Positions 242-39,917 of a stretch of 64,000 bases of DNA are shown piece after piece (positions within the stretch are counted from its first letter, which is position 1; each line of letters opens with the position of its first letter). The notes below the pieces were generated by a model. That model ran no database searches, had not been told where the DNA came from, and worked only from the letters and a program-made list of their open reading frames with translations. The position numbers were made by a program, and so were the translations under genes. Source of the DNA: Imbricaverruca yamaguchii (lineage: Eukaryota > Arthropoda > Thecostraca > Neoverrucidae); contig JAOTOL010001646.1 in the NCBI GenBank assembly GCA_034440575.1, positions 1,131,501-1,195,500 on the forward strand, read 5' to 3'.

Positions 242-336
242 TTCTCCCGCGTCGCTGTAGATTCCGGCCAACACGCCGGATCTTCCGGCCCTGAGCCGCA
301 GGGTAGTCAACAGTGAGAAGTCGGACGGGAAGCTTG
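242..336 (-). CDS. Fibrillar collagen (type V/XI-like), exon 3, TSPN domain
   Basis: Internal exon of an extracellular-matrix collagen that would assemble into fibrils. The acceptor is pyrimidine-rich (ctgctcttcccag) and the donor reads GAA|GTACGT. Entering in phase 1, as exon 2 demands, it reads ASFPSDFSLLTTLRLRAG and on to GIYSDAGE. This matches the strand pattern that follows 'APTxQLYP' in the thrombospondin-N-like domain of collagen V/XI chains (FPxDFSxLTTxR...IYxxxG, known from the family). Length is 95 nt, phase 1 in and phase 0 out. The next exon lies beyond the left edge. The donor is immediately followed by a short repeat of about 9-10 bp (gtgagcagt on the plus strand). Phase agreement with exons 1 and 2 makes a chance ORF unlikely. 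A TSPN-bearing non-fibrillar collagen is the main alternative. Confidence 0.82.
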
Positions 337-819
337 CTGGGAAGAGCAGTTGTAAAGAACGGGTCAAGTGTGTGCACAATCCGGATCAGATCAACCGCAG
401 CTGTACTGACCCCATACCATTAAACAATTGTAGCAAAACGGCATACGTTGCGATTAGTTTCAGAAAATCTGACACAAATGGTCAGTAATAACGTGAAACA
501 AAGCATACAAGATACGTGTATGTCAATTATTAGCTATTATGGGTGAGTGCCGTGTACTACATACCGTGCTATGCATTATACTTACCGCTCACACCACTAT
601 TTTGTTGGCTCCTGAAGCCAGTGGCTGACCGCAGATCTGATTGGTGCACGCGGTGAATTTTGGTGCTCCGATCACCTGATTGGTGCTCCGACTCACCGTG
701 AATCTGATTGGTGGCTGCATCGCGAGTCCCGACTGACCGTAGATCTGACTGGTGGTTGTGACGCGAACCCCAACTCACCGTGGGTCTGATTGGTGGTTGC
801 GACGCGAGCCCCGACTGAC
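337..819 (-). other. Collagen intron 2
   Basis: Phase-1 intron of 483 nt between exons 2 and 3. Its first part is a 41-bp tandem array copied from the end of exon 2 together with its splice donor; the remaining roughly 290 nt hold nothing else I can recognise. If a downstream donor in the array is used, this intron shortens accordingly. Confidence 0.75.
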
Positions 820-835
820 CGTAGATCTGATTGGT
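624..835 (-). repeat. 41-bp tandem array carrying repeated splice donors
   Basis: On the minus strand each unit carries CCAAT-CAGAT-CTACG followed by GTCAGT, or the variant ...CACG followed by GTGAGT. Candidate exon ends fall at 820, 779, 738 and 697, exactly 41 bp apart, and a more diverged one with GTCAGC at 630. The GTCAGT and GTGAGT forms alternate, so the array behaves as an 82-bp dimer. The copy at 820 is the end of collagen exon 2. The whole array stays open in the exon 2 reading frame. Confidence 0.9.
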
Positions 836-1005
836 GGGCGCGGTGGGGACGGCGCTGGCCGGAAGTCGGACGGCGGTGTCGGCCCGGGTGCCGCCCTCCT
901 TCTGCGGCCGGCTGTCACACATGCCCGCCACCCGCTTGACCTTGACCAGGCCCGAGGTCAAGCCGGCCGCTCTCAGCAGGTCCACCGGGCGCGGGTCGCC
1001 GCCGC
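820..1005 (-). CDS. Fibrillar collagen (type V/XI-like), exon 2, start of TSPN domain
   Basis: Encodes the beginning of the TSPN/LamG-like N-terminal domain of a secreted fibrillar collagen. Acceptor ctctgccccag|GCGG; donor CTACG|GTCAGT. With the one base left over from exon 1 the join reads GGGDPRPVDLLRAAGL, then VAGMCDSRP, ADTAVRLP and APTNQIY. The family pattern seen is xDLL..., G-x-C-x-x-R, D-x-A-x-R and APTxQ. The single cysteine expected here is present. Length 186 nt, phase 1 in and phase 1 out, GC-rich third positions. The donor region is tandemly copied into the following intron, so the true 3' end may be 820 or a downstream donor. Use of the donor at 697 would add 123 nt and keep phase 1. 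Alternative: another TSPN-containing collagen. Confidence 0.87.
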
Positions 1006-1933
1006 CTGGGGCAGAGACCGAGGTCAGAGTGAGACCCGGTGCTAGGTCAAGTCTTGGCCTCTCAGACCAGTCTGCAGTCATTCAAAACTGAACCGACAAC
1101 ATGCCAATCTGAGGTGTGCATTCCGCATCTGGTGATGCGAGGGTCAGTCATAGACACTGTACAACTGAAGTACAGAACGGACGCAGTACAGGCCGGACGC
1201 AGAGTCAAGTTGGATGAAGCTGTCTTCACGTGGGGAGAAGTCCATACGTGGAAGGACGTATATCAGACAGTAGTGAATTGAGACGCCACCAACCAGAGAT
1301 GAAGATGCGGGTTAATGGGGTGCGGACTGCATCCGCACGTCAGTCGGTGTCCTACGGCTGGCTGACACTAGTCAATGAGACGTCAGAGACAGCTGGGTAG
1401 CTGCCGATAGACAGGGATCTGAGTCAGACCCATAGAGCACTATCGCCGCTGACTGCACTCATATACATGGACGTCACCACCGCTGGGGTCCCTGGGATTC
1501 TCACCCATCGATATGTTTTACACAATCCTCCTAGGTCTCTAACTTGAGACTTTTATCGCGCCCCGGGGTTAAACCCTGTCTCGGAACTGAATGTGGTGCC
1601 GCGCTTTGCGGAGTATATAGGAGGAGCGAGTAGTGAAGAGTCGCTGATTCACTTAAGCAATTAGGCTCATATTATTTTCGAATACTTCAGTGCAAAATCC
1701 GTCAGATCATACCACGTCAGGAAGCTCCGGAGTCATTTTCTTCGGAGATAGATTTTCTCACTGACGAGCTCCAGGTCTCTGTTGGACACCGGATTCCTGC
1801 CTAGTACAGGGCCCCTGACTGTTGCCCTGGTCGCGATAATGGTCCAGTTCACGTCCCTGACTGCCACTGGCGTCCCTGATAAACGCCCTGTTCCTAACTA
1901 ACTGATGAACGATGGATTACTGTTGGATGTCCG
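1006..1933. other. Collagen intron 1, segment without recognised features
   Basis: Lies between the exon 2 acceptor and the large 35-bp minisatellite. I see no convincing exon or transposon here. Confidence 0.5.
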
Positions 1934-3654
1934 GCCCTGTCGCCGCCGGAACGGTGGTTCAGCCTGGGTCATGTCACCGCCGTGGCAGTGGCGGTGGTTC
2001 AGCCTGGGTCCCTGTCGCCGCCGTAACAGTGGTTCAGCCTGGGTCCCTGTCGCCGCCGTAACAGTGGTTCAGCCTGGGTCCCTGTTGCCACCGTGGCGGT
2101 GGTTCAGCCTGGATCTCGGTCGCCGCCGTGGCTGTGGCGGTGGTTTAGCCTGGATTCCTGTCGCCGCCGTGGCGGTGGCGGTGGTTCGGCCTGTATCCCT
2201 GTCGCCGCCGTGGTTGTGGTTCAGCCTGGGTCCCCGTCGCTGCTATAGCGGTGGTTCAGCCTGGGTCCCCGTCGCTGCCGTGGCGGTGGTTCAGCCTGGG
2301 TCCCCGTCGTTGCCGTGGTGGTGGTTCTGCCTGGGTCCCCGTCGCCGCCGTGGCGGTGGTTCAGCCTGGGTCCTGTCACCGCCGTGGCGGTGGCGGTGGT
2401 TCAGCCTGGGTCCCTGTCGCCACCGTGGCTGAGGCGGTGGTTCAGCCTGGGTCCCCGTCGCCGCCGTGGCGGTGGTTCAGCCTGGGTCTCTGTCGCTGCC
2501 GTGGCGGTAGCGGTGGTTCAGCCTGGGTCCCTCTCCCCGCCGTGGCGGTGGTTCAACCTGGGTCCCCGTTGCCGTGGCTGTGGTTCAGCCTGGGTCCCCG
2601 TCGCTGCCGTGGCTGTGGTTCAGCCTGGGTCCCCGTCGCTGCCGTGGCTGTGGTTCAGCCTAGGTCCCCGTCGCTGCCGTGGCGGTGGTTCAGCTGGGGT
2701 CCCTTTCCCCGCCGTGGCTGTAGTTCAGCCTGGGTCCCCGTCGCCACCGTGGCTGAGGCGGTGGTTCAGTCTGGGTCCCCGCCACCGTGGTTGTGGTTCA
2801 GCCTGGGTACCCGTCGCTGCCGTGGCTGTGATTCAGCCTGGGCTCCCGTCGCTGCAGTGGCGGTGGTTCAGCCTGGGTCTCTGTCGCCACCGTGGCGGTA
2901 GCGGTGGTTCAGCCTGGGCCCCCGTCGCTGCCGTGGCGGTGGTTCAGCTGGGGTCTCTCTTCCCGCCGTGGCTGTGGTTCAGCCTGGGTCCCTGTCACCA
3001 CCGTGGCGGTGGCTGTGGTTCAGCCTGGGTCCCCGTCGCTGCCGTGACTGTGGTTCAGCCTGTATCCATGTCGCCGCCGTGGCAGTGGCGGTGGTTCAGC
3101 CTGGGTCCCCGTCACCGCCGTGGCGGTAGTTCAGCCTGGGTCTCTGTCGCTGCCGTGGCGGTGGCGGTGGTTCAGCCTGGGTCCCTCTCCCCGCCGTGGC
3201 GGTGGTTCAGCCTGGGTCTCTGTCGCCGCCGTGGCAGTCTGTATCCATGTCGCCGCCGTGGCTGTGGTTCAGCCTGGGTCCCCGTCGCCGCCGTGGCGGT
3301 GGTTCAGCCTGGGTCCCTGTCGCTGCCGGGGCGGTGGTCTCCGTTGCCGCCGTGGCGGTGGTTCAGCCTGGGCCCATGTCGCCGCCGTGGCTGTGATTCA
3401 GCCTGGGCCCCTGTCGCCGCCGTGGCGGTGGTTCAGCCTGGGTCCCCGTTGCTGCCGTGGCGGTGGTTCAGCCTGGGTCCCCGTTGCCGCCGTGGTGGAG
3501 GTTCAGCCTGTATCCCTGTCGCCGCCGTGGCGGTGGTTCAGCCTGGATCCCTGTCGCCGCCGTGGCTGAGGCGGCGGTTCGCCCTGGGTCCATGTCGCCG
3601 CCGTGGCGGTGGCGGTGGCGGTGGTCCAGCCTGGGTCCCCGTTGCCGCCGGGGC
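1934..3654 (+). repeat. 35-bp GC-rich minisatellite, about 48 units
   Basis: The unit is about GGTTCAGCCTGGGTCCCCGT plus CGCCGCCGTGGCGGT. Many units carry an extra GGCGGT, giving 41 bp, and there are several degenerate or shortened members. The unit contains no stop in the forward direction and its length is not a multiple of three. Translation therefore cycles through three frames and returns as a 35-residue repeat rich in W, P, G and R. That explains the roughly 500-codon ORF here, which I do not regard as a gene. It lies inside collagen intron 1. Confidence 0.93.
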
Positions 3655-4121
3655 CGCGGCGGCCGCTCGGACCGCCCTGCCCTGCATCTGCTCGGCCGGT
3701 GATGCAGGGTTTGTTTATGTTAGTCTCAGCGCCGGCTCGGCGTCCACAAGCGACGCGTACTGCCGTGCTGGGACAGCGGTACTGCCGAGCACGCCCGCAA
3801 AGGCGGCGATGAATGAGCGCCCTGTGTGTATCAGTGGGTAGACTTGGACTCGGAATGAGCTCCACCACAACAGACAGCTTTGGGGGAGGATGTCGAAAAT
3901 CTCAGGCAGACGGATTAGTTGCGCAATATGCCCATGGAGGCAGTGTGGCCAGAGGGGTTGGGATGCACCCCCATCCGTAAGCCCCCTTCTCCCTGCCCTC
4001 CCAATGGAGGAGCCCATGTCGAGCAGTTTATATACTGCTTGCTTTGACACCCAATCAGTGATTGTGGCGGTAATTGTAGCCATCGTCTTCTCAAACCGAC
4101 AATGCGATTTTTCCCCAAACT

Positions 4122-4133
4122 AAGCATACTATG
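4122..4133 (+). repeat. Left target-site duplication of the family A SINE
   Basis: AAGCATACTATG, identical to the copy at 4320-4331. Confidence 0.9.
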
Positions 4134-4319
4134 ATGGGGCCGGGTATGGGCGAGTGGTTACGGTATTGAACTCTGGGTGCCAAAGGTCCCGGGTTCAACA
4201 TTCCCATCGCTCTGGTCGTTTCCAAATCCCGCGGCCCACTGGTGAAACAGTGTGCACGGTGCCATTAGCCGTGATCGGGCAAAAAGTGGGTGGAGAACCA
4301 CCCAATAAACAGACAAACA
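4134..4319 (+). mobile_element. tRNA-derived SINE, family A, full length with target-site duplication
   Basis: The head looks like a tRNA gene with an A-box-like TGGGCGAGTGGTTACGG and a B-box-like GGGTTCAACATTCCC. The body is shared with two other copies in the window (about 56.6 kb and 31.0 kb), and the tail ends cccaataaacagacaaacaa. A 12-bp direct duplication, AAGCATACTATG, flanks it on the left (4122-4133) and right (4320-4331). Such duplications are the signature of LINE-assisted insertion. Confidence 0.9.
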
Positions 4320-4331
4320 AAGCATACTATG
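4320..4331 (+). repeat. Right target-site duplication of the family A SINE
   Basis: AAGCATACTATG, identical to the copy at 4122-4133. Confidence 0.9.
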
Positions 4332-4915
4332 TAAAGAAAAGCGCCCTGTCGTACGTGGGTTCCACAATGTAGTGGGTGGGGGGGGGGGACGGTGGAGGTA
4401 ATGCACCCCTTCAACTCCTCTCACATTTAACAAGGATGTTGCATATAAATAATCGGTCTGCAATTGTTAAAATCCCACTTTCGTTTTGATAGCGGTGGAT
4501 CTAATGAACTTGCTGTACTGAACTTCGAGAGCCAAATTGTCCTCAATCGTATTCGCCCAACATGCGAGATCCGCATCCTTTGCACGCTGTCGTGTTCCCT
4601 AAACGTATCTCCAAATTGCATTTGCTGAATTATCGAGCATTGACCAGGTGTTCAAAGTATTTTAATGCAGCATTCTACAAAGCTGAGGCCTTCAAAATCT
4701 CAGAAAAGGATGCATTTCAATTGGTGTAAAATTATTTAGCCCCTCTCATGTCGGTTTGATTCCTTTCAAACAAGCGGCTGAATTCCTCAGTAGAAATGAG
4801 CAGTTCAAGAAGACGGAAGACATCAACTGATGGCTCACTGCTAAAAGCGATAATAGTTTGTGATATGAAATGCATGTGAGGTCTTTTGGTTATGCATATA
4901 TTGTATATAAATATT

Positions 4916-4919
<4 letters not shown>

Positions 4920-4996
<77 letters not shown>

Positions 4997-5048
4997 ATAT
5001 ATATATAGATATATATGTATATATATATATATATATATATTATATTAT
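4920..5048. repeat. (TA)n microsatellite
   Basis: Alternating TA with a few TATG and TAGA interruptions. Confidence 0.97.
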
Positions 5049-5049
5049 C

Positions 5050-7363
5050 TAGTTCAGTCTAAGCCACAATCGCACCAATACAACAGGGATCCTACTGCCG
5101 CGGTCAGTGGGCAGCCACAGCGCGAGGAGTGTGGCGATGGAAGTAATTGTCCCCTACACACCACTAAGATTTGGTGCTTCGTTTTCCAGTTTGAAGCTGT
5201 CAGGTATCGCACATATGTCTCTTAAGATGAAGGGGCGTATTTCGTGTTGATTGATCCAGCTGATGCAACTTTGATAACGTCAAGCTAGAGATTGAAGCAT
5301 GAAATATTCGACAGCAACATTCAGAAATGGCCGAAACAAAAATAGGTTCTTTCAATTGTATGTGCGCTAATTTTGTTTTCAGCAGTAAGGGAGTACCCTT
5401 ACTAACCGTTCCCTCTATATCTCTAGAGTGTATAGGGGAGCACTGCGCAATCATGGCACAGGATTCAGTTTGCAAGGACACATACCTATGAAAGAAAATC
5501 ATGCTCCTCACCACGGAAGTTTATTCTTGTCTTACCCTTGGATGGAAGCTTCGCAAAACTACTGCTGATGCCAGCATGTGATTTAGCTACATGTTTTCCA
5601 TGTAACGGCATATACGGAATAAATATATAGATATTTATGTCAATGAGAAAGACCTGCTCTACTCTGATGTATTGAGGGGCATTTGTTCCTTTCTCTAAAA
5701 GTAGCTTAATGTCCTTTCTAAATTGAAGGAGTGAATGCTAGCATTAGATATTGGTTGACGAAAAGGGGGAAATGCAAATATTGGTGTTGCATGACAACAT
5801 CAGTATTTTTATTGGTGTCGTACCTGCCAACAATACCAAAGGTACATCAGCCTCTTCCCCAGATATCAGGAAATGGCGTTTGCGCAAATGTGGGGCAACC
5901 AATACTTATCGGGTATGTGTCACCCCATTTTGAAATTGATTTATTGAATTTAATTGAATGAAATATGTTTATTGAAAATATCTGGTTTATTTTCGGATTT
6001 GAAGAGACCACAAAGGGAACAAAATTGCATGGATATCCGTTAATATATTCATCGCCATAGTAAGGTGCGAGAGATATATTCTCTTCTTTGAATAATACAT
6101 TGGATGGCGTAATTATCTGTCTTGCTGCCCAAAAGTACTCTGGTGGGTTACTGAATCTCCAAGTGCATTTTACATTTGCGTGATTTGATTTCAACTTATG
6201 TGGATAGCATATTGTATAAATTAAGTAACCTTTTCGGAGAACAAAATTGTTTTCAAGCATCGCTCCCCCTCCCCCGTTTGAGAATTTCTACCTGTACTCT
6301 TGACGGCAGCCAGCCATGTCTCAGAGGATATAAAAAGGACAGGATTAGTTCTGGGTACATGTAAGATGTATGAGTTATGATTTCCAACCATAGATCGTCA
6401 GCCATATATTAAACGGGTCAACTATGCAATTCTCAAATTTGTGCAGCGATCGCAGTCAGCGTTAAGTCCAGAACATTTTCTCACGTGACTGTGTGCCTTC
6501 ATGGTCTCTGCTAAGCGGAGTTTATTGAACCATGCATCAGAGATTCAGCTTCCAATGACAGTTCATTAACAGCATCATAGCCGGAGCTGTTTATCGCGCC
6601 CTTGAACTTTTCGTCGCAGCCACCTCAAGGTTTGGCACCGTACCCACGATCCCGGGCATGGGAAGAACATCGGCGAGGAATTGGTAATGCTGATGGATCA
6701 AAGCCGGGAGGGAGGAACGGCTGCGGCAGAAGACTGGCATCCGGAGAGCCACTTCTTCTCTCATTGTCACGGCTTACCCTCAATGGGAGGCAGAACGGTG
6801 GCGCAGCTAGGTCCAGGGACCGAATGTCGTTATTTTTTTTAAAAGTATATATATCAAACACCTTTTTTGTAAGTTCAGCTCCAAAGGATCACTTGCCGGT
6901 GAGGAGCAACATTTTTTTGCCGATGTCCTTATGAAAGTTGCCACGCTAAACACTGCATTTTTCATTTTATTTGGATGTTTTCAGCATTACCTACATGAAT
7001 AGTGCCATAGCAATAGACCTGCGATTAACTGCTAGGAGCAATATTTTGCAAATATTATTTTTTCCTTGCTAGGTTCTAAAAAACAGTTACCGAAATCTGA
7101 CTTTGTACGTGAATCGAGGGGAGAGGACGGAGAAGGGGACAGAAGAAACGCACGGGCTTACCAATCTAGCTTGAAAATTGCCTCTGACCCAATGGGGTTG
7201 GACACCACCTAGAAGCTGAAAGTGATGACGCCATTGATTCAACTCCAGCTTTTTAGTTCATGGAGGTTTTAATTTTGTGTCGTGCCCGGCTAAAATTTGT
7301 CCCTTTGAAACTTTTTTTCTTCACTTTGCCACTTGTTCTTGGATTTTTTTGTACTAAATCAAA
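5050..7363. other. Collagen intron 1, no recognised features
   Basis: Mixed-composition spacer. Only short unsupported ORFs are present, and none resembles a known domain or has a good splice-site pair. Confidence 0.5.
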
Positions 7364-10300
7364 GGGGCCAAATGTATCCTTTTCGGGACCATTTCTATCC
7401 TCGCAAAGTGTCCTGGACCAAATGTATCCTCAACTTTCTCATGAAATAAAACATGTTTGGAGTGATTTAAACCTACATAAAGTAATTATGCATGTTAAGC
7501 ACAATCAATTCTGAGCACGATTAATGTATAACATTAAGGTTAGCCCCCTAAGTTTTCCCCTGAGGGCCTTTGCAAGTTGACCTGTTTCGTCTTTTTCTTA
7601 AACCTAACCTCACATGAAAAGTCGATTTTTGATCGAACCGAAAGTCATAGGTTAAGATTTTTCCTTGGTTAAGATCCGCATTCAATTCTGACCCTAGGTT
7701 AAGTCAAATATTTTAGGAGTCTTCAGGATTAGAGTTGTTCAACATTTCCATGTTGGTATATATGACACCTACAGGATACTGAAGCTCCAAGGAAAATACG
7801 AAAGTACACTGGTGCACTGTGTGAATACTACTTAACCGATTTACTTCGATCACAAATATCTGATAGAGGATGCAATGGAGAGTCTATTGTTTTATGAAGA
7901 TCCAAAATCGGACTTAAGGGGGCTGCGAAAACTCAAAAAAAAAACTTTTGCCTTTATGCCTATGGGCCATTTTCTAACGTCTTTTTCGTATTGTTCCTGA
8001 CAATTTACCCAAATATAAATTATATACGCCGATTGCCCCCTATTTGGGCTATCTATCTAAAAAAACAGACCTATTTTAAGTTCATAACTTTTTGATTTAT
8101 TCGACCTCCAAATTCACCAAGAACCAAATGGACCATTTCTCCTTGGAGCTCTGCAATTTCGAATTTTGGACTTAAGAATGCAAATCTTGTTGGAATCATG
8201 TTTTTTTGGTATCGCGCATCGGGGAAAAAATATAAGAAAAAAATTAAATTTTAGGAAATTTAAGCACTGCTCAAAAGTTAAGTCCAACTTTTTAAAAGTT
8301 TCATTCCAGAAAATCATTTTATTTTAAGTAATGCTACACTTCCTAATTTCGTACTTAGAAATCCACCGGTAACTTTAAAAGTTATTAAGCTTTAAATATT
8401 CGAAAATAGGTGGACCTGTGTTAACCCAATGGCAGGTCGGATCCCGCTCGAATCATGATTCCAGACTACGTTACCGACAGAATTGCAATATTTGTACACC
8501 ATGCGAAAGCCAATGAAAGGGTCATGATTTCACCCGTGCTATATGGTAGGTCATCGGTCATAGGTAAGGGGCGAGTGAGCTTATAATTTGTCCAAATATT
8601 TGAAAATTTCAAGTACCCCTACAAGCTTCGTTTTTCGAGATATCCGAAATCTTTCTCAGAGTGTATAGAGCTCGGGAAGCTCTATCATCCAATCATGACC
8701 TCATATTGGATTACTTCAATAGTTTAGGCTTGAGTTTCACTCAAACTTTTCCCATGTTAAACCAATGAGGCTAAGACTTCATCAGAGAAAACTTTAAAAA
8801 CGTTTCTAACCAAATCTAGTTGGATGTCACAGGACCTATTTTTCACGGTGCGTCGACTGGTGAGGGAAAATCTCAAATCCGTCGAGAACTTTTCGTGTTA
8901 TAAGCATTTTTCCAAAATTAGGTGTTTTCAAAAGTGTTAGGTATTTTTGCAGAACGCGAATAACCCCTTATCAGTCACAGATAACGACGAATATCAAGGG
9001 ATGTGTTTTATAGACAATTGGTCTGGGCATATTTTACTATGTACTTATACCCCCTATATCTGTAAGTGTCCCCCCTACACATCGTCAAACATGGGGAAAA
9101 ATCAGAATTTTTTTCGGTCATATATCGACCGATATTTTTTTCGGTCATATATAAGTTACAGAGCCAGAGGGAAATCAACTACTTTTCTGAGATCAACGCA
9201 TTGAGATACGTCTGGTAAAATTGACTTGTATTAGGAAATTATGTCAAACAAAAAAGTCAAACAAAAAGTCAGCTGTGGCCCGACTTTTTTCCCGGATCGT
9301 AAATCTGCGCTAGGGGGCACATTTAGTGTCTCATTTACACAATCATGATGCGCCTGTGTTCAACTTGAAAGGATACAACTTCTGGCTATCGCTAAATTTT
9401 CGACAAAATGCATTTTGGTACTTAGGATTTTAAGTGAATTTGGCTTAAGTTGGAGCAAAAAGTTTCCAAAGCAGCATTCTTAAATTCTAACACGATAATA
9501 AGACATCAATTTTGAACATATTTACTTCCTTATAAGATATCGAAAAATTGAACATGACCATACAAAAGATCAAAAAGTACTTAAGCATGTTCGAGTTTTT
9601 CTTAATAACTTCTTAAGTTTTATGATGTTTTGGAGACAATGCATTAGTAAAAGATGCACTATGGAAGTGTGGATCCAACGCTGTGAGAAATTATGACCTA
9701 ACATGCACAACTAATGGTGCAAGAGGTGAAAGGACAGCCACTATTTTTTTGACGAATCTTTCATGAAATGGTGTTCATTTGACCTTCCTAGGTCAACATA
9801 CGTGCATTGGAGCGCAAACCTGAGGAGGGATTTCTACAGAGAATTTAGGTGCGCTACTTTTCTAGAAAATATTTCGTTCAAAATTATGTCCAAAAAAGTT
9901 TCTAAAACACAAATCTATTTTTGATTCCCAAATTTTGCTAATTAAAAAACGATTTTGGAAAATCCTTTTCATCTTTTCTTATTGCCAGATGAATTGTCAT
10001 CGGAAAAATGACATTAAAAATTTGGAAAATTTCCAAATATTTACGAACATACAAAAACATTCCCCATCTTGTATTTCCAAAACGCAAAGAAGAAATTATA
10101 ATTTCTCGTATGGAGCACTTCGAGCTCGACGACATCAATCTAATGATGTACGATTTATCATGATTCTGTAAGTATTGCGGGATTTACGGAGCCTTGTATG
10201 TACGGGAGACTTTGAGACCAAATCCGAATGTTTATATGCTCGTATCTCAAAAAGTTACTGTCCGATTTCTTTGTTAAGGACATATTCGTGATCAGCACAT

Positions 10301-11192
10301 TATTCTACGTCTAACACAACTGGTTAGAATAATTAGTTTGGTACCTTAACATGAGCAAGCCTGAAACAAATTCCAAAAAGTAAATAGTTTTGGGAAAAGT
10401 GCTCTGGATTAATGGATTTCGCTTCCCGGGTGCAGAAATGCATCGTGCACGATATGCACGTACCAAGGCAACTTATAAAAATTACGAGAAAAAAAAATAT
10501 ACCAGGAACTTTTTTTTTTAATCAAACTTTTTTTTTCTCTCAAATACTGATTCTTTTGAGGTGCCCCTAAGCGTTTATAAATTTCAACATTTGCATCTTT
10601 TTGTGAACCTAACCTACCTAAAGGACACGGGCTACCAGAACCACCTTGAAAAACATCAGAAAAACTAACGGAAACATGTTTTTAGAATGTTTTTAATTTT
10701 TGGTTGTTGATTTTTAAAATTTCAACACAACATTTTTGAAAAAGTTGAAAAGCTAACCGAGACGAGATTAAATCATTAGATCCGCCGTGAGCAGCTGCAT
10801 CTTTTACTAAGATTACCTTTATCTACAAATGTGGACGGATAATGTGTCAGAACCAAAAATGTTCGTACCAGGATACATATGGTCCACTTGATTTTTGATA
10901 TTCTTGTGTTATCTGGGCGTTGCGGTCTGCAAAATGTCACTTTTGACTCAACTTCGTAGCATCTTTAAGAGTACTTTAGGCCTGCTTAACCTAGGTTATG
11001 GTGATAATTTCGGATAGAGTGATCTTTTTTTCTTCAAAACGCACTCCTCTGATTTGACCTAAGGTCAACACCCATCTGGCAATCCATCTTGCAAAACACC
11101 TCTGCAAGGATAGAAGTGGTCCTTTAGGTTCATATGAGGATAGAAATGGCCCACTTGGTTTTTGGTCGGATTAGTGAGGATACATCTGGTCC
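7364..11192. mobile_element. AT-rich 3.8-kb segment bounded by convergent repeat motifs
   Basis: An 18-bp motif of the form GAGGATA(C/G)A(T/A)xTGGTCC occurs on the minus strand at the left end (7368-7380 partial, 7386-7402, 7415-7430) and on the plus strand at the right end (10871-10885, 11106-11122, 11136-11152, 11176-11192). The interior is AT-rich with homopolymer runs and lacks long ORFs, unlike the GC-rich repeats beside it. Inward clusters of one motif at both ends resemble subterminal repeats of a non-autonomous DNA transposon. No exact terminal inverted repeat or target duplication could be placed, so the class is unassigned. Confidence 0.5.
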
Positions 11193-11359
11193 ATTCGATT
11201 AACCAAACCGATCTGCCAAATAGTCCCTCGGTAGTTGGGCGAATTGCTTCCTCCGGCGATGGCGCTTCATTTCACCTGCTGTACCGCATCGAAGCTACGT
11301 ACTGCGGGTCAGTCTATTCCCCATCTCATCAGGCGGCTGTCAGGCTGCGCGAGAACCAG

Positions 11360-11401
11360 GGATGCGGAGCCGGAGCCGGAGCCGGAGCCGGAACATTTTT
11401 C

Positions 11402-11440
<39 letters not shown>

Positions 11441-11500
11441 CCGGGACATTTTCCTCTGAGCCGGAGTCGGAGCCGGGGCCGTCAAAAGCATGGCGGCTCC
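11360..11500. repeat. GAGCCG hexanucleotide minisatellite, block 1
   Basis: (GGAGCC)n runs interrupted at intervals by GGACATTTT- or GAACATTTTT-type spacers, giving a higher-order pattern. It begins after ccagggatgcggagcc. Confidence 0.93.
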
Positions 11501-11699
11501 GGCTCCGAAAGAGGTGTAAATTAAACAAAATTAGCAAATGTGAAATGAACACATTATACCTAGCATAAAGATAGATACAGGGTTTATATGGGAAAGTTGC
11601 TTATAATTGTCTGAAGTTTGCGCCCCTGAGTGGTCGCGGGTAACTTTTCTTTACATCCCCCTAGCTCTTACTTAATGGATCGATCACGTTTGGGATGTA

Positions 11700-11880
11700 C
11701 AGAGCCGGAGCCGGACCCGGAGCCACCGAAGCCGGTACATTTTGCCCGGAGCCGAAGCCGGAGCCGGAGCCGCCGGGACATCTTACTCGGAGCCGGAGTC
11801 GGAGTCGGAGCCGGGATACTTCCCCGGAGCCGGAGTCGGAGCCTGAGCCGTCCAAAATTTTCCCGGCTCCGTATCCCTGG
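11700..11880. repeat. GAGCCG hexanucleotide minisatellite, block 2
   Basis: Same hexamer and same CATTTT-type spacers as block 1. Its right border, read on the minus strand, is ccagggatacggagcc, the same border sequence that opens block 1. The pair is therefore bounded by inverted copies. Confidence 0.9.
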
Positions 11881-11899
11881 CGAGAACATTGGTTGTTTA

Positions 11900-12900
11900 C
11901 AGGACGTTGAATGCTAATGCTATTTCTGAGCCAGGAAAAAGAAGTGGATTTTCATGCGAGTCGTGTAGGCCTGCTGCCTGAACCATACTCCAACTCTCCC
12001 ACACCGGACAGTCACGGAGGAGCCCGAGGTTCGCGCGGCCAGCGGGCCACAGTCTAGCAGCTTGTCAAGTGCGATACAGAGATGCTGTCCACCACGTCGC
12101 AGAGTTCCTGACGTGCCAGGTCGTCAGGTAATGGCTCTGTTTTCACAGCTTCGCATCGGAGGATTCGTGAACTGTTCTCGCATTTCATGCTCAGACCCCA
12201 GTTCAGATCAGGTTGGCATGAAGTAAATATAAGATCCAGAAATGGCGTGGTACGGCAGACCCAGGACGACAAGCTCCCAAAGTGGCGTTAATCGTGACAC
12301 TTCACCTCATCTAGAAAACATAATTAATTGGGCTGTCACATGGCTGTTCTTTCTAGCCATAGTCGCGATGGTGCATAAATTTGTTCTCACCGTCCTTTTT
12401 TCTTCTGTCAGTCCTTCCATACCCAATTATCTTCACGACGCTAATTCTGTAGGCTTTAAAACCTTGCATGCATTATCGAGTGATAATACATTATCTGCAC
12501 CTGCATTACCAACATGATGATAAATTCATTACTTCATCACGTTATTTTTCTCACATCCTGAACCATGTCAGCCATAGACGAGGATAGACGCCACTAGGTC
12601 GAGCACCTTTGAATTATGTCCACATCAGGACGTTTTAGCTTTCGGATATTTGTGCCTTCCACAGAAAAGAGTCACAGGAGGATGAAGGTGCATCAAGATC
12701 TGATGTGTCCTGACCATTGCGCTTTGTGAGAGAGAAGACATTTATGCTTGATTCCGAAGCCGGAAGGGAAGCCATCCGACACTAGTTAAGGGCGGTTGGT
12801 TTAAATACTGCTGTGATCCCAGCACCCGCAACAAACAAGGTTTTCTTCACAGCCAAGTATAACTTCCCGTTATCCTTGCGTTCCGGTCAACGACCGCAGT
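11900..12900. other. Collagen intron 1 spacer
   Basis: No supported gene. A short minus-strand reading near 12054-12160 (EAVKTEPLPDDLARQELCD) looks protein-like, but it has no recognisable family and no splice context. Confidence 0.4.
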
Positions 12901-12920
12901 ATCTACAGACGTAAGCAAGC

Positions 12921-13135
12921 TTGGCCAGCAGAGGTTATGTGTGCACTCTGCGGACGCCACTTGGCCCAGACAGACAACATCCCTTGGCCAGCAGAGGTAC
13001 CATTTGCCCTCCGAGCAGCAGATGCGTTGCTTGCAGCTTCCTTGTGCCCTCCGGCCAGCAGATGATCCGTGTGCCCTCCGGCCAGCAGAGGTTCCGTTTG
13101 CCCTCCGACCAGCAGAGGTTCCGTTTGTCCTCTGC
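12921..13135 (+). repeat. About 27-bp minisatellite, degenerate
   Basis: Units of the form GGCCAGCAGAGGTTCCGTTT GCCCTCC. The last three or four are nearly identical and the earlier ones diverged. Confidence 0.85.
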
Positions 13136-13159
13136 TGACGTCCCCTGGCTCGCACACCA

Positions 13160-13500
13160 CCACTTCCGATGTGGTTCAGGCGGCAGCGTGACGGCCGGGG
13201 CGGGCTGAGCGAGTCGCCTGGCCGGTTAGACTGTACCGCGGTGACTGACCCGCGGCGGGCCGCGCGATGGATGGGCCGGCCGGCGGGCCGGTGGCGGTGG
13301 CTGTGTGTGCGGTGCGCTCGTCAGCGGCGAGGTGGCGTGTTGCAGGCGCCGCGTCCGCCTGACAGCCGAGACACGTTCCATGTGGCGCCGTCGTCGCACA
13401 GGAATCTGGGTCTCGCTGTGTAAACACCGGGCGTCGTACCCGGTCAGCGGCCCGGTCTGGGGCGCGCCGTGGTTCGGCCGCCGCCGGTGCTGGCAACCTC
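13160..13500. other. GC/CpG-rich block with competing exon-like readings
   Basis: On the minus strand an acceptor-like gtgtttacacag precedes a GC3-rich reading with FLCDDGATWNVSRLSGGRG ending in a stop. On the plus strand an equally good reading follows gtgttgcag and ends NLGLAV-stop. The two strands cannot be separated by eye, so neither is called as a gene. The block lies inside collagen intron 1, so a true exon would belong to a nested gene or an alternative transcript. Confidence 0.3.
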
Positions 13501-13503
13501 CGC

Positions 13504-13994
13504 TGGGTCACGGGTGGTGCTGGCCACCACATCCGGCCACGGTTGGTGCTGGTCACCACATCCGGCCACGGGTGGTGCTGGTCACCACATCCGGCCACGG
13601 GTGGTGCTGGCCACCACATCCGGCCACGGGTGGTGCTGGCCACCACATCCGGCCACGGGTGGTGCTGGCCACCATCCGGGCCACGGGTGGTGCTGGTCAC
13701 CACATCCGGCCACGGGTGGTGCTGGTCACCACATCCGGCCACGGGTGGTGCTGGCCACCACACCGGCCACGGGTGGTGCTGGCTACCACATCCGGCCACG
13801 GGTGGTGCTGGTCACCACATCCGGCCACGGGTGGTGCTGGTCACCACATCCGGCCACGGTTGGTGCTGGTCACCACATCCGGCCACGGGTGGTGCTGGTC
13901 ACCACATCCGGCCACGGGTGGTGCTGGTCACCACATCCGGCCACGGGTGGTGCTGGTCACCACATCCGGCCACGGGTGGTGCTGGCCACCACCG
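13504..13994 (+). repeat. 29-bp minisatellite, homogeneous core, about 17 units
   Basis: Unit CCACGGGTGGTGCTGGTCAC plus CACATCCGG. Units are nearly identical, differing mainly at ggtcacc/ggccacc. Each contains the hairpin-forming GTGGTG-CTGGT-CACCAC. Confidence 0.95.
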
Positions 13995-14300
13995 CTGGGT
14001 CCCGAGTGGCACTAGTCATCACTTCCAGGCCGCTAGTGGCACTGGTCATAGCCTCTCCGCTGCGAGAGGTACTGATCAGCATCTTTTGGCTGCGAGTGGT
14101 ACTGGTTACCCCCTGGCCCCTCTGATGACCACTTCTCGTTCCCGGGTGGCAATATTCACCACCTCTCGACCGCTAGTGACACTGGTCATCACCTGTTCGC
14201 GAGTGGTAATATTCGCCACCGCTCGGCCATTAGTGGTTCTGATCACCACCACCTGTTCGCGAGTGGTGCTGCTCACCACTGTTCGGCTGCGGACGGTTCC
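13995..14300 (+). repeat. Diverged continuation of the 29-bp minisatellite
   Basis: About ten units of 27-36 bp still recognisable by GTGG(C/T)(A/G)CTGGTCA(T/C)CAC and a CTCGCxGCGA-like linker, but with many substitutions. The array passes abruptly from young homogeneous units to old ones on this side only. Confidence 0.75.
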
Positions 14301-14809
14301 AGCAACGACTGGTGAACATGCCACTGCTCCAGACCTCTGGACACGATGTGTTGGGATTCCTAAGCACGGAATGCGTCCCATCGAAACGACTAATGTTGAT
14401 TTGCTGTCAGCACTGGGTCCAGGGCGCCGGCGCCATAATCGCTGGTGCTGTAATGTGAATATAACGGCGTGTCTGGCTCTACAACACGGCCAAAATCTCT
14501 GCAGCTTGGCCATGGTAGCGAATCTCGATTAATCACGAAGGAATCCATTTTGTGTTGCACTGTGTTTATTTGCTTACTTGTCTCCCGCATCGTTCCGCCT
14601 GCAGCCTGCTCAGCGAGAACTCGACACGGGCTTACGCGACCCATATGCTACGATCCTCACATTACCCAGAATTATTGCTCGATGCTACATCTTTCCCGCA
14701 TCCTTTGCTCATCACATCTCCATTCCTTGCTGTCTTCACTCACATCGACAAGCACACCAATAACCGCCGTTCGAGGATGTGCATACGCTAATTTCAAAGT
14801 AGCATAACG

Positions 14810-15015
14810 CAATGGGACAGCCACAATTTGGCTAATGCGTTAGTCACCATTTATGCAGGTTTATTATGGTGCAGCCACGGTTGCTGCGCCCCGGTAATGG
14901 GGCAGACACAGTCCTTGCGGTTCGGTAAGCGGACGGTCACTATCACTTTAGTTCATTAAAGGGAGTGCCACACACAGGGCGCAGCCACATCCTGTGCGTA
15001 TTGGCTATAAGGAGT
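14810..15015 (+). repeat. Degenerate tandem repeat of roughly 60 bp
   Basis: Four weakly similar units anchored on gg(g)CAGCCAC (14818, 14870, 14903, 14980 approximately), each followed by a cgxxxxggtAATGG-like stretch. Confidence 0.45.
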
Positions 15016-15460
15016 CATGTTGCATGCGCCTAGCATCTGACGATTTTCAAATGCCTTGATGATTAATCTGACTGCCATTCGAGAAGACAGTGGAAGCCGG
15101 GGAGCGATGCCCACTTGGTACACTTGATACGCAGGAACATATACTTCTCGGGATTCGTTACGACACCTGGCGTCGGACAGATTTGTCCACCTGGCGTCTT
15201 CGATTGCCAGCACGTGTTAATCCCGCTGTGCACAGCGCAATTTGAATAAACAAATAATACGAATCGAATCAATTATTTGGTATTTGGTATTTGTGCTGCT
15301 ATCAACGTTAGAACATTGCGGAGCCTGATATTATTCCGCTGCTTAGTAACATACTCGTATATTGAAGAACACACTGGGGATGGCTAAAAGCGAACACAAA
15401 TATCGTACTTCATTAGGTGTCGGAGGGAGTATTTATCTGTTAGCTGAGCGATGTCGGGCG

Positions 15461-16362
15461 GCTGTTACAGGCATGACTGACCTGACTGGGCGTGGGCGAG
15501 CGCCCACAGTCCGCACAGCAGCAGCACGCGCTGGTGCCAGCTCATGACGGCGGGCGGGCGGCTGTTACAGGCATGACTGACCTGACTGGGCGTGGGCGAG
15601 CGCCCACAGTCCGCACAGCAGCAGCACGCGCTGGTGCCAGCTCATGACGGCGGGCGGGCGGCTGCTACAGGCATGACTGACCTGACTGGGCGTGGGCGAG
15701 TGCCCACAGTCCGCACAGCAGCAGCACGCGCTGGTGCCAGCTCATGACGGCGGGCGGGCGGCTGTTACAGGCATGACTGACCTGACTGGGCGTGGGCGAG
15801 CGCCCACAGTCCGCACAGCAGCAGCACGCGCTGGTGCCAGCTCATGACGGCGGGCGGGCGGCTGTTACAGGCATGACTGACCTGACTGGGCGTGGGCGAG
15901 CGCCCACAGTCCGCACGCAGCAGCACGCGCTGGTGCCAGCTCATGACGGCGGGCGGGCGGCTGTTACAGGCATGACTGCCTGACTGGGCGTGGGCGAGCG
16001 CCCACAGTCCGCACAGCAGCAGCACGCGCTGGTGCCAGCTCATGACGGCGGGCGGGCGGCTGTTACAGGCATGACTGACCTGACTGGGCGTGGGCGAGCG
16101 CCCACAGTCCGCACAGCAGCAGCACGCGCTGGTGCCAGCTCATGACGGCGGGCGGGCGGCTGTTACAGGCATGACTGACCTGACTGGGCGTGGGCGAGCG
16201 CCCACAGTCCGCACAGCAGCAGCACGCGCTGGTGCCAGCTCATGACGGCGGGCGGGCGGCTGTTACAGGCATGACTGACCTGACTGGGCGTGGGCGAGCG
16301 CCCACAGTCCGCACAGCAGCAGCACGCGCTGGTGCCAGCTCATGACGGCGGGCGGGCGGCTG
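15461..16362 (-). repeat. 100-bp tandem array: nine copies of collagen exon 1 with its splice donor
   Basis: Nine head-to-tail units, seven exactly 100 bp and two 99 bp. Read on the minus strand each unit has gccgtcATG, a 64-nt coding stretch, the donor TCAG|GTCAGT, and a 36-nt linker. Units start (plus-strand phase) at 15461, 15561, 15661, 15761, 15861, 15960, 16059, 16159 and 16259. One unit has a 1-bp deletion in the coding part (near 15917) and its neighbour has lost the GT of the donor (near 15978), so seven of nine are fully intact. Confidence 0.96.
15482..16343 (-). CDS. Fibrillar collagen (type V/XI-like), exon 1: start codon and signal peptide, nine tandem copies
   Basis: The coding part reads MSWHQRVLLLCGLWALAHAQ followed by S and one base of a glycine codon. 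It has a short basic start, a hydrophobic core LLLCGLWALA, and an AHA cleavage site, so it is a textbook secretory signal peptide. Exon 1 ends in phase 1 at CAG TCA G|GTCAGT and exon 2 starts in phase 1, and the joined product is a signal peptide directly followed by the TSPN domain, the arrangement known for collagen V/XI chains. Start codons have their A at 15545, 15645, 15745, 15845, 15944, 16043, 16143, 16243 and 16343. Reading past a donor reaches a stop after GQSCL, so a unit is productive only if spliced at its own donor. Which copy is used cannot be told from sequence. Confidence 0.85.
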
Positions 16363-29960: not shown

Positions 29961-30099
29961 CGATGAGAATTATCCTACCTGACCACCGGAATTTCATGGA
30001 GAAGCCACAGGTGTACCAAGCAGTCTGCAGTCACCTGCAGATGGAGTCACCATCGCACAACGTGTCGCTGCCACCATCGTCAACTCTTCACTCTTTCAG

Positions 30100-30244
30100 A
30101 GTCAAAACATACCCGACTTCTTGCGCGGCTTGCCGTGTCGCGACTCCAAGAACTTCTCGAAGTTCTCGGCCGACAATGGACCGAAGTCGTCCGGGAAGAA
30201 GGCGCCTATCTACATGCCAACTACTGACCACCCGTCGGAGCAGG
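30100..30244 (+). CDS. Internal coding exon of an unidentified gene
   Basis: A 145-nt exon with a strong pyrimidine-rich acceptor (cttcactctttcag) and a strong donor (AGG|GTAAGC). It is open throughout, phase 0 in and phase 1 out. The 48 residues begin SQNIPDFLRGLPC, continue with DSKNFSKFSADNGPKSSGKK and end APIYMPTTDHPSEQ. It is polar, lysine- and serine-rich, with a proline-tyrosine stretch. I do not recognise the family. No neighbouring exon could be joined with confidence; the plus-strand terminal exon at 44.9 kb starts in phase 0, so it is not the direct partner unless an exon lies between. The reading is much more protein-like than the surrounding sequence. Confidence 0.65.
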
Positions 30245-30394
30245 GTAAGCAGATCGCCCGAGACCACGCAACCACACGCTGTCATAGCGCCATTTCGTTA
30301 GTGCTAGCTGATAATGTTGGGGTTAGCGCACACTTAGGTGAATGTTTGGTTTCGACGTTCATTTATCGTATGTGAATACGCTTGTGTGGGAAAA

Positions 30395-30565
30395 CTCATA
30401 GTGCTAAGCTCGTACGCAAAGAAATCGCATTGGAAAAAGTTTATATGAGCAAAAGGCTCGTAACCGTAAAAGTTCGTATGGGAAAGGTGTACGGAAAAAA
30501 ACTTACGTCAATGACGAAACTCGTATGGAAGAAGTCCGTACCTCAAAACAACTCGTAAATTGAAA
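30395..30565 (+). repeat. Degenerate CTCGTA(T/C)GG-AAAA repeat
   Basis: Irregular units of about 20-28 bp built on (G/A)(C/T)TCGTA followed by a purine-rich stretch, starting roughly 150 bp after the donor of the exon at 30.1 kb. Confidence 0.5.
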
Positions 30566-30867
30566 GTGTGCAAGGAAAAGATTTGGGCGGGCAAATGGTC
30601 TTAATTGCAGAAGTGTGTCGGAAGTGGTCTTGTGTATAAAATAGCAAGATAACGTAAATGTCGGTAACTTTTTAAATTGAAACGGGAAGATGACAAAGTA
30701 GAAGTTTACCAAACAGGGGAAGCGGAACATTTTCGAAGCCTCCCAGAACCTCCAGTTATGATAATGCTGCCAGTGTACAACTAACGCCACCAGTGGTAGT
30801 TTTTGCAACTGCTGCTACGGGAACTGGTTGCGACGATCTCTAAATGAACTACTTGCCTATGGGTTAA

Positions 30868-30999
30868 GCGCTGTTTGACCGAAGCAGTCGATGCGCCCCT
30901 AAGCCCAAATAACCAACCCAACCCAACCCAACCCAACCCAACCCAACCCAACCCAACCCAACCCAACCCAACCCAACCCAACCCAACCCAACCCAACCC
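30868..30999 (+). mobile_element. SINE family B 3' end with an expanded (AACCC)n tail
   Basis: GACCGAAGCAGTCGATGCGC-CCCTAAGCCCAAATAACC is followed by about 17 perfect AACCC units (30915-30999). The same end without the expansion occurs at about 35.8 and 40.6 kb, so the pentamer is an expansion of the SINE tail. Confidence 0.8.
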
Positions 31000-31002
31000 G
31001 TT

Positions 31003-31108
31003 TATTGGGCGGTTCACGACGCACTTTATGCATTACCACGGCTAATGGCGCCGCCCGTACTGTTTCGCCGGTGGGCCGCGGTATTGGCCCAACCGAACCC
31101 GAATAATA
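31003..31108 (-). mobile_element. SINE family A, 3' half
   Basis: The minus strand matches the 3' part of the family A copies at 4.1 and 56.6 kb: gcggcccaccggcgaaacag, tagccgtg, and cccaataaac. The tRNA-like head is missing. It abuts the (AACCC)n tail of the family B copy tail to tail. Confidence 0.85.
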
Positions 31109-31254
31109 ACTAAGCTAGTTGAAATACAAAGGTCATCCTATTGGGTAATACCATAGTTGGCTAACCATCTTACAGAGCCACAAACGTCGGAATACGCTTA
31201 AAGTCGGATGCAGACTGAGACGCTACAAAATTTAAACCTAATACGATCTGAATA

Positions 31255-31402
31255 TGATCGGTACCTGTTGTTTTGTATGACACGCCGACGGTAGCGTCGC
31301 CAATCTCCCACGCCGATTGGTCGTGGGCGCAGAGCAGCGGCAGGTGAGACTCGAACCCACACTCTTCTGATTATGAGACTTACCCCTAGACTACCCTTCT
31401 CC
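31255..31402 (-). mobile_element. tRNA-derived SINE, family C
   Basis: On the minus strand GTAGTCTAGGGGTAAGTCTC is followed by a B box, GGGTTCGAGTCTCACC, then a body with GGGAGATTGGCGACGC shared with 36.1-36.3 kb. tRNA-like but not a functional tRNA gene. Confidence 0.75.
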
Positions 31403-31904
31403 GATCTTAATAGGATCGTATTTGTAAACACAAACAAATCATTTTCTCAGAAGTCGAAACTGCAGTAGAAAACGGTATGCTGGCATGCTATAATGCAGCT
31501 ATTTGGCTTTATTACAACGCCAACATTTGTGAGATAGGAAGTTATAACGTTTTGTGATCAAGGCAAACATGTATTATGAACACTGAAGCTCTATGTACCA
31601 AACCATGTTGAAAGTTTGATGTGAGCAGGAGACAAACGTGCGCCGGATGTAACGCTATGGTCCATAATTGTCGCAGCACCTACAACCAATCAGATATCAG
31701 CGTTGGGTTGCCGTAATTGCCTCCAAAGAACTGTGGCCGAAAGTTCATGGTTGAGTCTCATGAACTCGGGTGCATGAAGGTTGATGGTTGAATCTCATGA
31801 ACTCATGTGGCTGAAGGGACGCCACCCGCAGTGCATCGTGTGCATTTGGAGGTCGTCGTATCCGTAGCTCAGCTTCACTTCATTGATTTTTAAAGAGTGA
31901 CATT

Positions 31905-32200
31905 CGCCTTGGCCTGCCGTTCCTCCCTGTGTCATCCTTTGCCTGCCGTTCCTCCCTGTGCCATCCTTTGCCTGCCGTTCTTCCCTGCGCCATCCTTTAC
32001 CTTCTATTTCTCCCTGCGCCGACCTTTACATGCAGCTCCTCCGTGCTACCCTTTGCCTGCCGTTTCTCCCTGCGCTATATTTTGCCTGCCGTTCCTCCCT
32101 GCGCTATCTTTTGCCTGCCGTTCCTCCCTGCGCTATCTTTTGCCTGCCGTTCCTCCCTGCGCTACCCATTGCCTGCCGATCCTCCCTGGGCCACCCTCCT
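31905..32200 (+). repeat. 29-bp pyrimidine-rich minisatellite, about 10 units
   Basis: Unit TTGCCTGCCGTTCCTCCCTG plus CGCTATCTT. The central units are almost identical and the outer ones diverged. Confidence 0.93.
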
Positions 32201-32307
32201 TTCACGGGCCACACCTGCTATACCAGAGACCTGATAGCCGTTTCGTCCCGGCCGCAACTCCGCCACTGCATGAGCCTTCCGTACCAGGGATACGGCTACA
32301 GCGTAAA

Positions 32308-32395
32308 ATACATTACACTACATTACATTACATTACACTATATTACATTGCATTACATTGCAGCGGGATTGAACCGAGAGCCAGTTTCCCGTCAT
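32308..32395 (-). mobile_element. (ATTAC)n microsatellite attached to a B-box-like SINE end
   Basis: The plus strand shows (ATTAC)n. Read on the minus strand, CTCGGTTCAATCCCGC, a B-box-like sequence, precedes it. Probably a short SINE remnant with a pentameric tail. Confidence 0.45.
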
Positions 32396-32399
32396 AAAT

Positions 32400-35300: not shown

Positions 35301-35780
35301 TCGCCACGGCATCCGAAATCTGAGATGTTCTGCACTGGTTCGTGACAAGGCACTAAGAATTTCCATCAAGTGCGCATTACTGTAATTTGATGTTAGCTAA
35401 ACGTTCGGTTGTGGAAGTCATGTGTCCTTGGCAGCGAATCGCTCCACCACAGAACATACGGTCGTAAGCTTATTTCTGCGTGATCACATGGCCATTGCGT
35501 GCTGATGCACAATTGTGGTGAAACGTTTGTGTAGTCCATGTGTCGTCAGCATTTCGTGTTCATGGTGGTGAACACATTTTCAAGGAAATGTTGTATTTTG
35601 AGACGGAGGCATGACAACATTGCGGATTGAATTAGTGAATCTGTGTGCCATTAAAGGAAAATGATGATGACGTATTTGGTAAAAGAGGCGTTTGGTAGGA
35701 CAAACGGCAACATTACGACGGGGTAGCTGACTTGACTATTGGCCAGCTTAAACATATGTTCCGAAGATAAATGCTGATGC
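32400..35780. other. Spacer, no gene called
   Basis: Includes a direct duplication near 33.16-33.25 kb (acttttagaatttggcaaag, twice) and a short CpG-richer stretch at 34.86-35.17 kb with two competing plus-strand readings (VPLQRVHMGHRARTP; SMSRCNECIWDTGLV). Neither is supported by a family match. Confidence 0.4.
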
Positions 35781-35789
35781 AAGGGCCAT

Positions 35790-35845
35790 GGGCGCTGCAT
35801 GACCAATGTAGTCGATGCGCTCTAAAAAGCCCTAATAACTAACTG
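35790..35845 (+). mobile_element. SINE family B 3'-end fragment
   Basis: GACCAATGTAGTCGATGCGC followed by ctctaaaaagccctaataac, the same end as at 30.9 and 40.6 kb. Confidence 0.65.
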
Positions 35846-36117
35846 ATGCGAGAGGCAAGGGGGAGTATGGTCGGTATTAGAGTACGATCTTTTTTATGCC
35901 TAATTTATTCCCACACAGTGCCATATTTAGTTAATGCTGTCAGAGCATCGCCCTCTGCAGGTTTTTTCTTTCTCACGCAGGCATGTGGCGCATTCGTATT
36001 GTTGATGGAGCCGCCTTCAATACGGCATGATTTTATATCCCTGCTGAAGGATGCTGCATGTTTTCGTAATTATGTACCGTTTTCAAGGATATATTGATCT
36101 TCATGTTGAATTAGTAG

Positions 36118-36288
36118 TTGGCGGGCGCGAGTAGTCTAGGCGTAAGGCGTCCGTCTTCCCGCCTTCCAACCGTAAGGTGGTGGTTTTGAGTCCCACCTGT
36201 CCTTACTCTTCGCCAACGATCAATTGGTGTGAGATATTGGCGACGCGGTATGACCCAATAGTCGTCGAGTCGTAAAAGCTAATAACGA
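36118..36288 (+). mobile_element. tRNA-derived SINE, family C
   Basis: GAGTAGTCTAGGCGTAAGGC (A-box side), GGTTTTGAGTCCCACCTG (B box), then ATTGGCGACGCGGTATGACC. It shares head and body with the minus-strand copy at 31.3 kb. Confidence 0.75.
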
Positions 36289-36589
36289 ACCGAATCGGCA
36301 ATTGACTTCTCGTCACGGCGCCATGCATATTGACCGGTTGCAAATTAATATTTTTGTTTCCTTGCGTAATAGTTGTGCAATGACATCCTGGACGTCCTGG
36401 GAGACTTCAGTGAAAGGGCGTGGGCCGTAATCTGCGCAAAATGTTTCGTGCCGGAAGGACGCCATGGATCAGCCAGCTGCCATAAAGAAGTCATCATCTG
36501 ACCTTAACTGCCAGCTAATGCCAGGCGGTTTTTCTGAGCTTCATTCATTCATAATTGAATTTAATATGTCTGGCGTGCACCTGGACAGC

Positions 36590-37654: not shown

Positions 37655-37795
37655 CGATATTTCAGGGAGGGTCGATCGACGGGGTTGGTTGGTAACTGGT
37701 TCAGTGTCCAGAGTGCAACCAAGAAGGGCCCTGGTGGCTCATAGTTGCACTGTACTTTTTATGTCTTTATGTCTTTTATGCCTCCAAATAATATA
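37655..37795 (+). mobile_element. CR1-like LINE 3' end (copy 4)
   Basis: Only the 3' UTR: ttcagggagggtcgatc, gtccagagtgcaaccaagaa, CTCATAGTTGCACTGTAC and the octamer tail TTTATGTCTTTATGTC. The tail is the cleanest of the four copies. Confidence 0.88.
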
Positions 37796-37799
37796 TAAA

Positions 37800-39910: not shown

Positions 39911-39917
39911 GTAGGGT

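Follow-up and report, generated by a model that had tools for sequence, protein, structure and literature searches.

The human IFI6 (6-16) gene was reportedly described by Turri et al. in 1995 as containing a minisatellite with multiple splice donors. Its repeat unit is about 12 bp long and is not known to contain anything beyond the donor. One paper reports that the IFI6 repeat provides further donors that are used (PMC4526556), and a second cites the original description (PMC2572611). In Arabis alpina, duplicated copies of exon 1 of PEP1 are spliced to one exon 2 (PMC3527215). UGT1 and PCDH are described as multiple-variable-first-exon clusters, in which tandem first coding exons share downstream exons (PMC1885805). 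With regard to the type of gene considered below, clade B fibrillar procollagens (types V/XI) are summarized as having a TSPN module in the N-propeptide (PMC2852846). An array of complete first coding exons was absent from the literature matches listed, which comprise titles and abstract openings from a part of the literature, and a search covering part of the literature retrieved no paper on a barnacle fibrillar collagen exon.

In this study, we analyzed a window of barnacle DNA, i.e., the whole stretch of 64,000 nucleotides from Imbricaverruca yamaguchii. The array and its copies are as follows:

15455..16362, minus strand: array of nine 100-bp units (two of them 99 bp) with ATG, signal peptide and donor
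16353..16362, minus strand: 10-bp direct repeat CAGCCGCCCG, upstream edge of the array
16280..16343, minus strand: exon 1 copy 1, intact, nearest the presumed promoter
16180..16243, minus strand: exon 1 copy 2, intact
16080..16143, minus strand: exon 1 copy 3, intact
15980..16043, minus strand: exon 1 copy 4, frame kept, donor altered by a 1-bp deletion
15882..15944, minus strand: exon 1 copy 5, intact donor, frame broken by a deletion of 1 bp
15782..15845, minus strand: exon 1 copy 6, intact
15682..15745, minus strand: exon 1 copy 7, intact, with two substitutions (one synonymous, the other in the intron part)
15582..15645, minus strand: exon 1 copy 8, intact
15482..15545, minus strand: exon 1 copy 9, intact, nearest exon 2
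15455..15464, minus strand: CAGCCGCCCG again, downstream edge of the array, followed by unique sequence

Tandem Repeats Finder reported the region 15455-16362 as a tandem array with a period of 100, 9.1 copies and 99% matches. The unit is 100 bp long in seven copies and 99 bp long in two (copies 4 and 5). Read on the minus strand, it consists of 16-19 bp, the ATG, MSWHQRVLLLCGLWALAHAQS, the donor CAG/GTCAGT, and 20 bp from the GT onward. All nine minus-strand copies begin with ATG AGC TGG CAC, and their ATGs are located at 16343, 16243, 16143, 16043, 15944, 15845, 15745, 15645 and 15545. The original prediction had described a nine-copy 100-bp array with a start codon, a signal peptide and a donor per unit, and had counted seven copies retaining both coding frame and donor. 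Such an array is present in the assembled sequence, and our recount of the copies, as assembled, gave the same number (7/9). The remaining two copies each lack a single T, which alters the donor of copy 4 (GGTCAG to GGCAG) and, being situated in the coding part, destroys the frame of copy 5; these deletions could be either real or consensus errors. Copy 7 has a synonymous change (GCG to GCA) together with one change in its intron part. Five of the nine copies are identical across the unit, and copy 9 deviates only at the array edge. The same peptide is encoded by all seven intact copies, with no coding variety among them, and the open frame of an intact copy whose donor is not used stops after 26 codons. 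As a separate observation, the 99-bp copies 4 and 5 adjoin each other, and the frame of copy 4 is open through copy 5 into copy 6 (15765-16139), where it meets the donor of copy 6 in phase.

The signal peptide was evaluated with a home-made rule, not SignalP, which requires a positive n-region, a hydrophobic stretch without charges or proline, and small residues at positions -3 and -1; the score of the unit itself served as the threshold. According to this rule, the exon 1 unit encodes an N-terminal signal peptide, and its donor CAG/GTCAGT fits the consensus MAG/GTRAGT at 8 of 9 places. When the unit was subjected to 20,000 dinucleotide shuffles (examined as a tandem pair on both strands), 24 of them matched its signal-peptide score, and none gave such a signal peptide plus a donor of at least 7/9. 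The window contains 2414 ATGs, both strands counted. Outside the array, four of them equal the score of the unit, or 17 when the threshold is loosened, and none of these outside-array ATGs has a donor of 8/9 or better. A more permissive scan, which covered the minus strand above position 1006 and accepted any signal-peptide-like ATG followed by a phase-1 donor of 6/9 or better, detected five other ATGs (6965, 27717, 50687, 59994 and 63717). Only the one at 63717 reaches a donor of 7/9, and its donors are located in another minisatellite.

The features assigned to the rest of the gene, along with a second minisatellite and a gene on the opposite strand, are as follows:

1006..15481, minus strand: presumed intron 1 of 14.5 kb, from the copy 9 donor to the exon 2 acceptor
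820..1005, minus strand: exon 2 (both ends in phase 1), in which the TSPN-like domain begins
688..837, minus strand: 41-bp minisatellite over the end and donor of exon 2 (Tandem Repeats Finder)
242..336, minus strand: exon 3, continuing the TSPN-like domain, with a presumed donor
29983..45214, plus strand: DDA1 (DET1- and DDB1-associated protein 1), ends read by eye

The candidate for exon 2 was obtained by scanning for stop-free stretches with high third-position G+C, and its TSPN likeness was recognized by eye. Exons 2 and 3 (1005-820 and 336-242, minus strand) have good acceptors. Splicing of the array to these two exons reads MSWHQRVLLLCGLWALAHAQSGGGDPRPVDLLRAAGLTSGLVKVKRVAGMCDSRPQKEGGTRADTAVRLPASAVPTAPTNQIYASFPSDFSLLTTLRLRAGRSGVLAGIYSDAGE, and the phase agrees at both junctions. 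The phase fit to collagen exon 2 that had been proposed for the unit was thereby borne out, phase 1 matching the TSPN-like exons downstream on the same strand. We then used the TSPN domain of human type XI procollagen as a query; its sequence was typed by hand rather than taken from a database record, and it retrieves collagen IX and NELL2 from PDB. Against a set of 2086 window ORFs (each at least 20 aa), the top two hits of this query were the exon 3 ORF (E 2.2e-4) and the exon 2 ORF (E 1.1e-3), followed by a third at 0.8. A profile composed of the type XI sequence and three TSPN pieces from PDB placed these two ORFs first again (2.9e-5 and 0.012), with the next ORF at 3.4. In comparison, the best E-values among decoys were 3.6 (single query) and 1.2 (profile) for reversed ORFs, and 0.28 (single query) for ten block-shuffled windows. 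The spliced exons 1-3 scored 37.4 bits against the type XI piece and at most 7.2 bits against collagen IX, NELL1 and NELL2. As a lone query, collagen IX from PDB ranked exon 3 first at E 0.1 and did not find exon 2, and NELL1 and NELL2 as lone queries found neither exon 2 nor exon 3. Judged with this hand-typed query, exons 2 and 3 appear to span the first part of the TSPN module of an N-propeptide.

Other searches gave negative results. No protein homologue at E ≤10 was found for exon 2 (107 candidates) or for exons 2-3 (2944 candidates), both searches having seen only proteins of approximately 800-2800 residues that share short exact words. Exons 2-3 had no Pfam match, and PDB yielded only chance-level matches for the exon 2 ORF (best E 0.17) and for the spliced piece (best E 0.8, none relevant). 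Pfam searches of the window translations (minus frames for 1-45 kb and plus frames for 1-15 kb, all three frames per strand with stops read as X) detected no collagen and a few weak matches, all below the cut-off. Rfam and tRNA searches were empty. Runs of at least four Gly-X-Y triplets numbered two in the window versus 3 to 10 in 20 shuffles, indicating no helix beyond chance. A Gly-X-Y run at 3638-3682, which had been considered as exon 2, was rejected as the edge of a 35-bp minisatellite. We nevertheless regard the gene, which runs off the window, as a fibrillar procollagen of clade B with a TSPN module, whose helix would lie to the left of the window.

The gene on the opposite strand is relevant to the length of intron 1. 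A plus-strand ORF at 29983-30375 matches the Pfam family DDA1 with an E-value of 1.2e-10, which is the only family above the cut-off among ten chosen ORFs searched against Pfam. This ORF has four protein matches, the top one being the unnamed P0001 (67% over 61%); the best matches that bear a name are the DDA1 proteins of Amphibalanus amphitrite (92% identity, covering 37% of the ORF) and Pollicipes pollicipes (90% over 37%). These identities mark the window as barnacle DNA, probably of neither of these two species. The DDA1 coding pieces, as read by eye, comprise one ending near 30244 and others at approximately 43214-43275 and 45110-45214. The further exons near 43214 and 45110 imply an intron of about 13 kb here too, and such a large intron in the opposite-strand gene counts in favour of a 14.5-kb intron 1 in the collagen gene.

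Several additional features were observed in the same window. CpG is nearly absent at 26001-28000 (observed/expected ratio 0.00 to 0.05 per 500-bp bin, with 3 CpG in 2 kb) and partly depleted around this region, with most of the window at about 0.7 to 1.3. Such a gap would be expected if this region were heavily methylated in the germline or if a methylated element had been inserted here. Two regions on the minus strand, 17321-17801 and 23759-24160, appear by eye to be remnants of reverse transcriptases of non-LTR retrotransposons; the former matches RVT_1 below the threshold (E 0.11) and the latter has no RVT_1 match.

A second array was found at the end of exon 2, where each 41-bp unit carries the 17 terminal exon bases plus the donor. 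The donors ACG/GTCAGT, ACG/GTGAGT, ACG/GTCAGT and ACG/GTGAGT are located at 0, +41, +82 and +123, respectively, and a weaker one (GCG/GTCAGC) at +190 lies just past the array. The frame of exon 2 is open to all five donors, and the phase is kept only at 0 and +123. To place these arrays among the minisatellites of the window, 20 repeat units were examined on both strands. They were drawn from 27 arrays with a period of at least 10, which had been merged by hand from the output of Tandem Repeats Finder; seven short arrays are outside the 20 units, and the microsatellite-like runs at 32309 and 57534 were excluded from the 27. A donor of 8/9 is present in only two of the 20 units, namely those of the two collagen arrays, and the other 18 have at most 7/9, a value reached by five of them. 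Since the 27 arrays fill 11.6% of the window, the occurrence of arrays at two of the three visible exon ends can be called only suggestive.

The edges of the exon 1 array provide some information about its origin. Both edge copies of CAGCCGCCCG are in register with the unit, and this edge repeat suggests that the array arose through slippage or through unequal exchange between short repeats. A 100-bp segment comprising 16-19 bp of 5' UTR, the whole coding exon 1 (phase 1), the donor and 20 bp of intron 1 would have been duplicated between the 10-bp direct repeats, and further rounds would have raised the number of copies to nine. The near identity of the copies suggests either recent expansion or ongoing homogenization, and copy number may vary between individuals.

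We consider it likely that the array represents the 5' end of a barnacle TSPN-bearing (type V/XI-like) procollagen gene, in which exon 1 has been expanded to nine copies and one of them is used. Transcription would begin to the right of the array, the first copy reached would have its donor joined to exon 2, and the other copies would be removed with intron 1, leaving the protein unaffected by copy number. Use of one copy per transcript is most likely, and that copy is probably the first. The ATG of each earlier copy is situated 100 nt upstream of the start of the next copy, and a further ATG, in the neighbouring intron piece, lies 29 nt ahead of the start of copy 2. A message that began upstream and relied on a later copy would contain these earlier ATGs, and the collagen frame should starve. 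Even the start of copy 1 is preceded by an ATG in another frame, 25 nt away, and a short leader or leaky scanning would be needed there as well. The nine interchangeable start/donor cassettes of the original prediction are hypothetical: the copies are alike in sequence but not in position, since a later copy read from an upstream start would carry the start codons of all earlier copies, and two copies are broken as assembled. A doubtful alternative is that the nine-copy exon 1 is genuine and its copies serve as alternative starts or donors in different transcripts, with collagen output adjusted by copy number. Seven copies with intact start, signal and donor would allow this, and the human IFI6 repeat is reported to give further used donors (PMC4526556). 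The obstacle is again that later copies stand behind earlier ATGs, including the one 29 nt ahead of copy 2, unless transcription starts inside the array, as multi-copy use would require. Fewer than 40 bp separate a donor from the next ATG (approximately 16-19 bp of the copy's own and the 20-bp intron piece of its neighbour), and a promoter per copy stays putative because only these 16-19 bp of own sequence precede the ATG. It is also unlikely that the locus is a dosage device in which transcription starts in or just above a variable array, and several exon 1 copies as well as the exon 2 donors are used; if so, repeat numbers would set the functional in-frame collagen yield of each allele. These readings overlap, and our estimates for them need not sum to one.

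Other explanations deny the nine copies or their link to collagen. The array might be an assembly artefact, in which one or few genomic copies have been inflated to nine, and the five identical copies, the deviation of copy 9 only at the array edge, and the read-error-like single-base deletions in neighbouring copies would fit this idea. We regard it as quite unlikely, given that copies 4, 5 and 7 are distinct from the rest, 908 bp is within ordinary long-read reach, and many other, more diverged arrays are present in the window. Very unlikely, in our opinion, is that the array exon is part of a different, small gene. A well-formed acceptor at 15383 (with CTAAT and then a pyrimidine-rich tract), followed by an open frame, lies 98 nt below the copy 9 donor, and joining them would yield a secreted peptide of 34 residues ending in AIPSVFFNIRVCY. 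This product is tiny, and the TSPN-like exons require a signal-peptide exon, for which the part of the window above them offers no good candidate other than the array. As minisatellites are frequent here (27 arrays), an anonymous GC-rich repeat might resemble an exon by chance; the result of 0/20,000 shuffles and the in-phase TSPN-like exons downstream make this highly improbable.

A minisatellite that repeats an entire first coding exon would offer a natural test of start and donor choice among near-identical neighbours, and of the way in which a coding gene copes with a mutable repeat where it is most vulnerable. The amplification of two successive exon ends together with their donors raises the question of whether such junctions are favoured for repeat birth in barnacles or such repeats are merely tolerated there, the extra donors doing little harm. 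Extreme nucleotide diversity has been reported for at least one barnacle, Balanus improvisus (PMC8270832). Provided that the array is real, it may therefore be easy to find alleles that differ in copy number.

Compared with known systems, the locus resembles IFI6 in that repeat units at an exon end carry donors. A strong donor within such a unit was found in both collagen arrays, and the array of exon 2 is built alike. The IFI6 unit is not known to hold more than the donor; the exon 1 unit of the barnacle contains the entire first coding exon, including its start codon and signal peptide. Donor use in RNA is reported for IFI6 and is predicted for the barnacle arrays. PEP1 has two exon 1 copies in duplicated segments of about 2 kb, which include parts of the promoter and of intron 1 and are 6.3 kb apart, in contrast to nine copies with a spacing of 100 bp in the barnacle. 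With regard to the multiple-variable-first-exon clusters, the seven copies and the phase of exon 2 suggest that tandem first exons of one phase likewise precede shared exons here; variable coding sequence between the exons is absent. The first exons of UGT1 and PCDH are characterized as unusually large and variable, those of UGT1 having distinct promoters, whereas the barnacle exons are 64 bp long and nearly identical. Like the clade B procollagens (V/XI), the barnacle gene has a TSPN-like module, here behind a signal peptide; unlike them, its first exon is amplified, and the triple helix and C-propeptide would lie beyond the end of the window. Minisatellite donors and duplicated first exons are already known, and a nine-copy minisatellite of complete first coding exons was absent from the literature matches listed.
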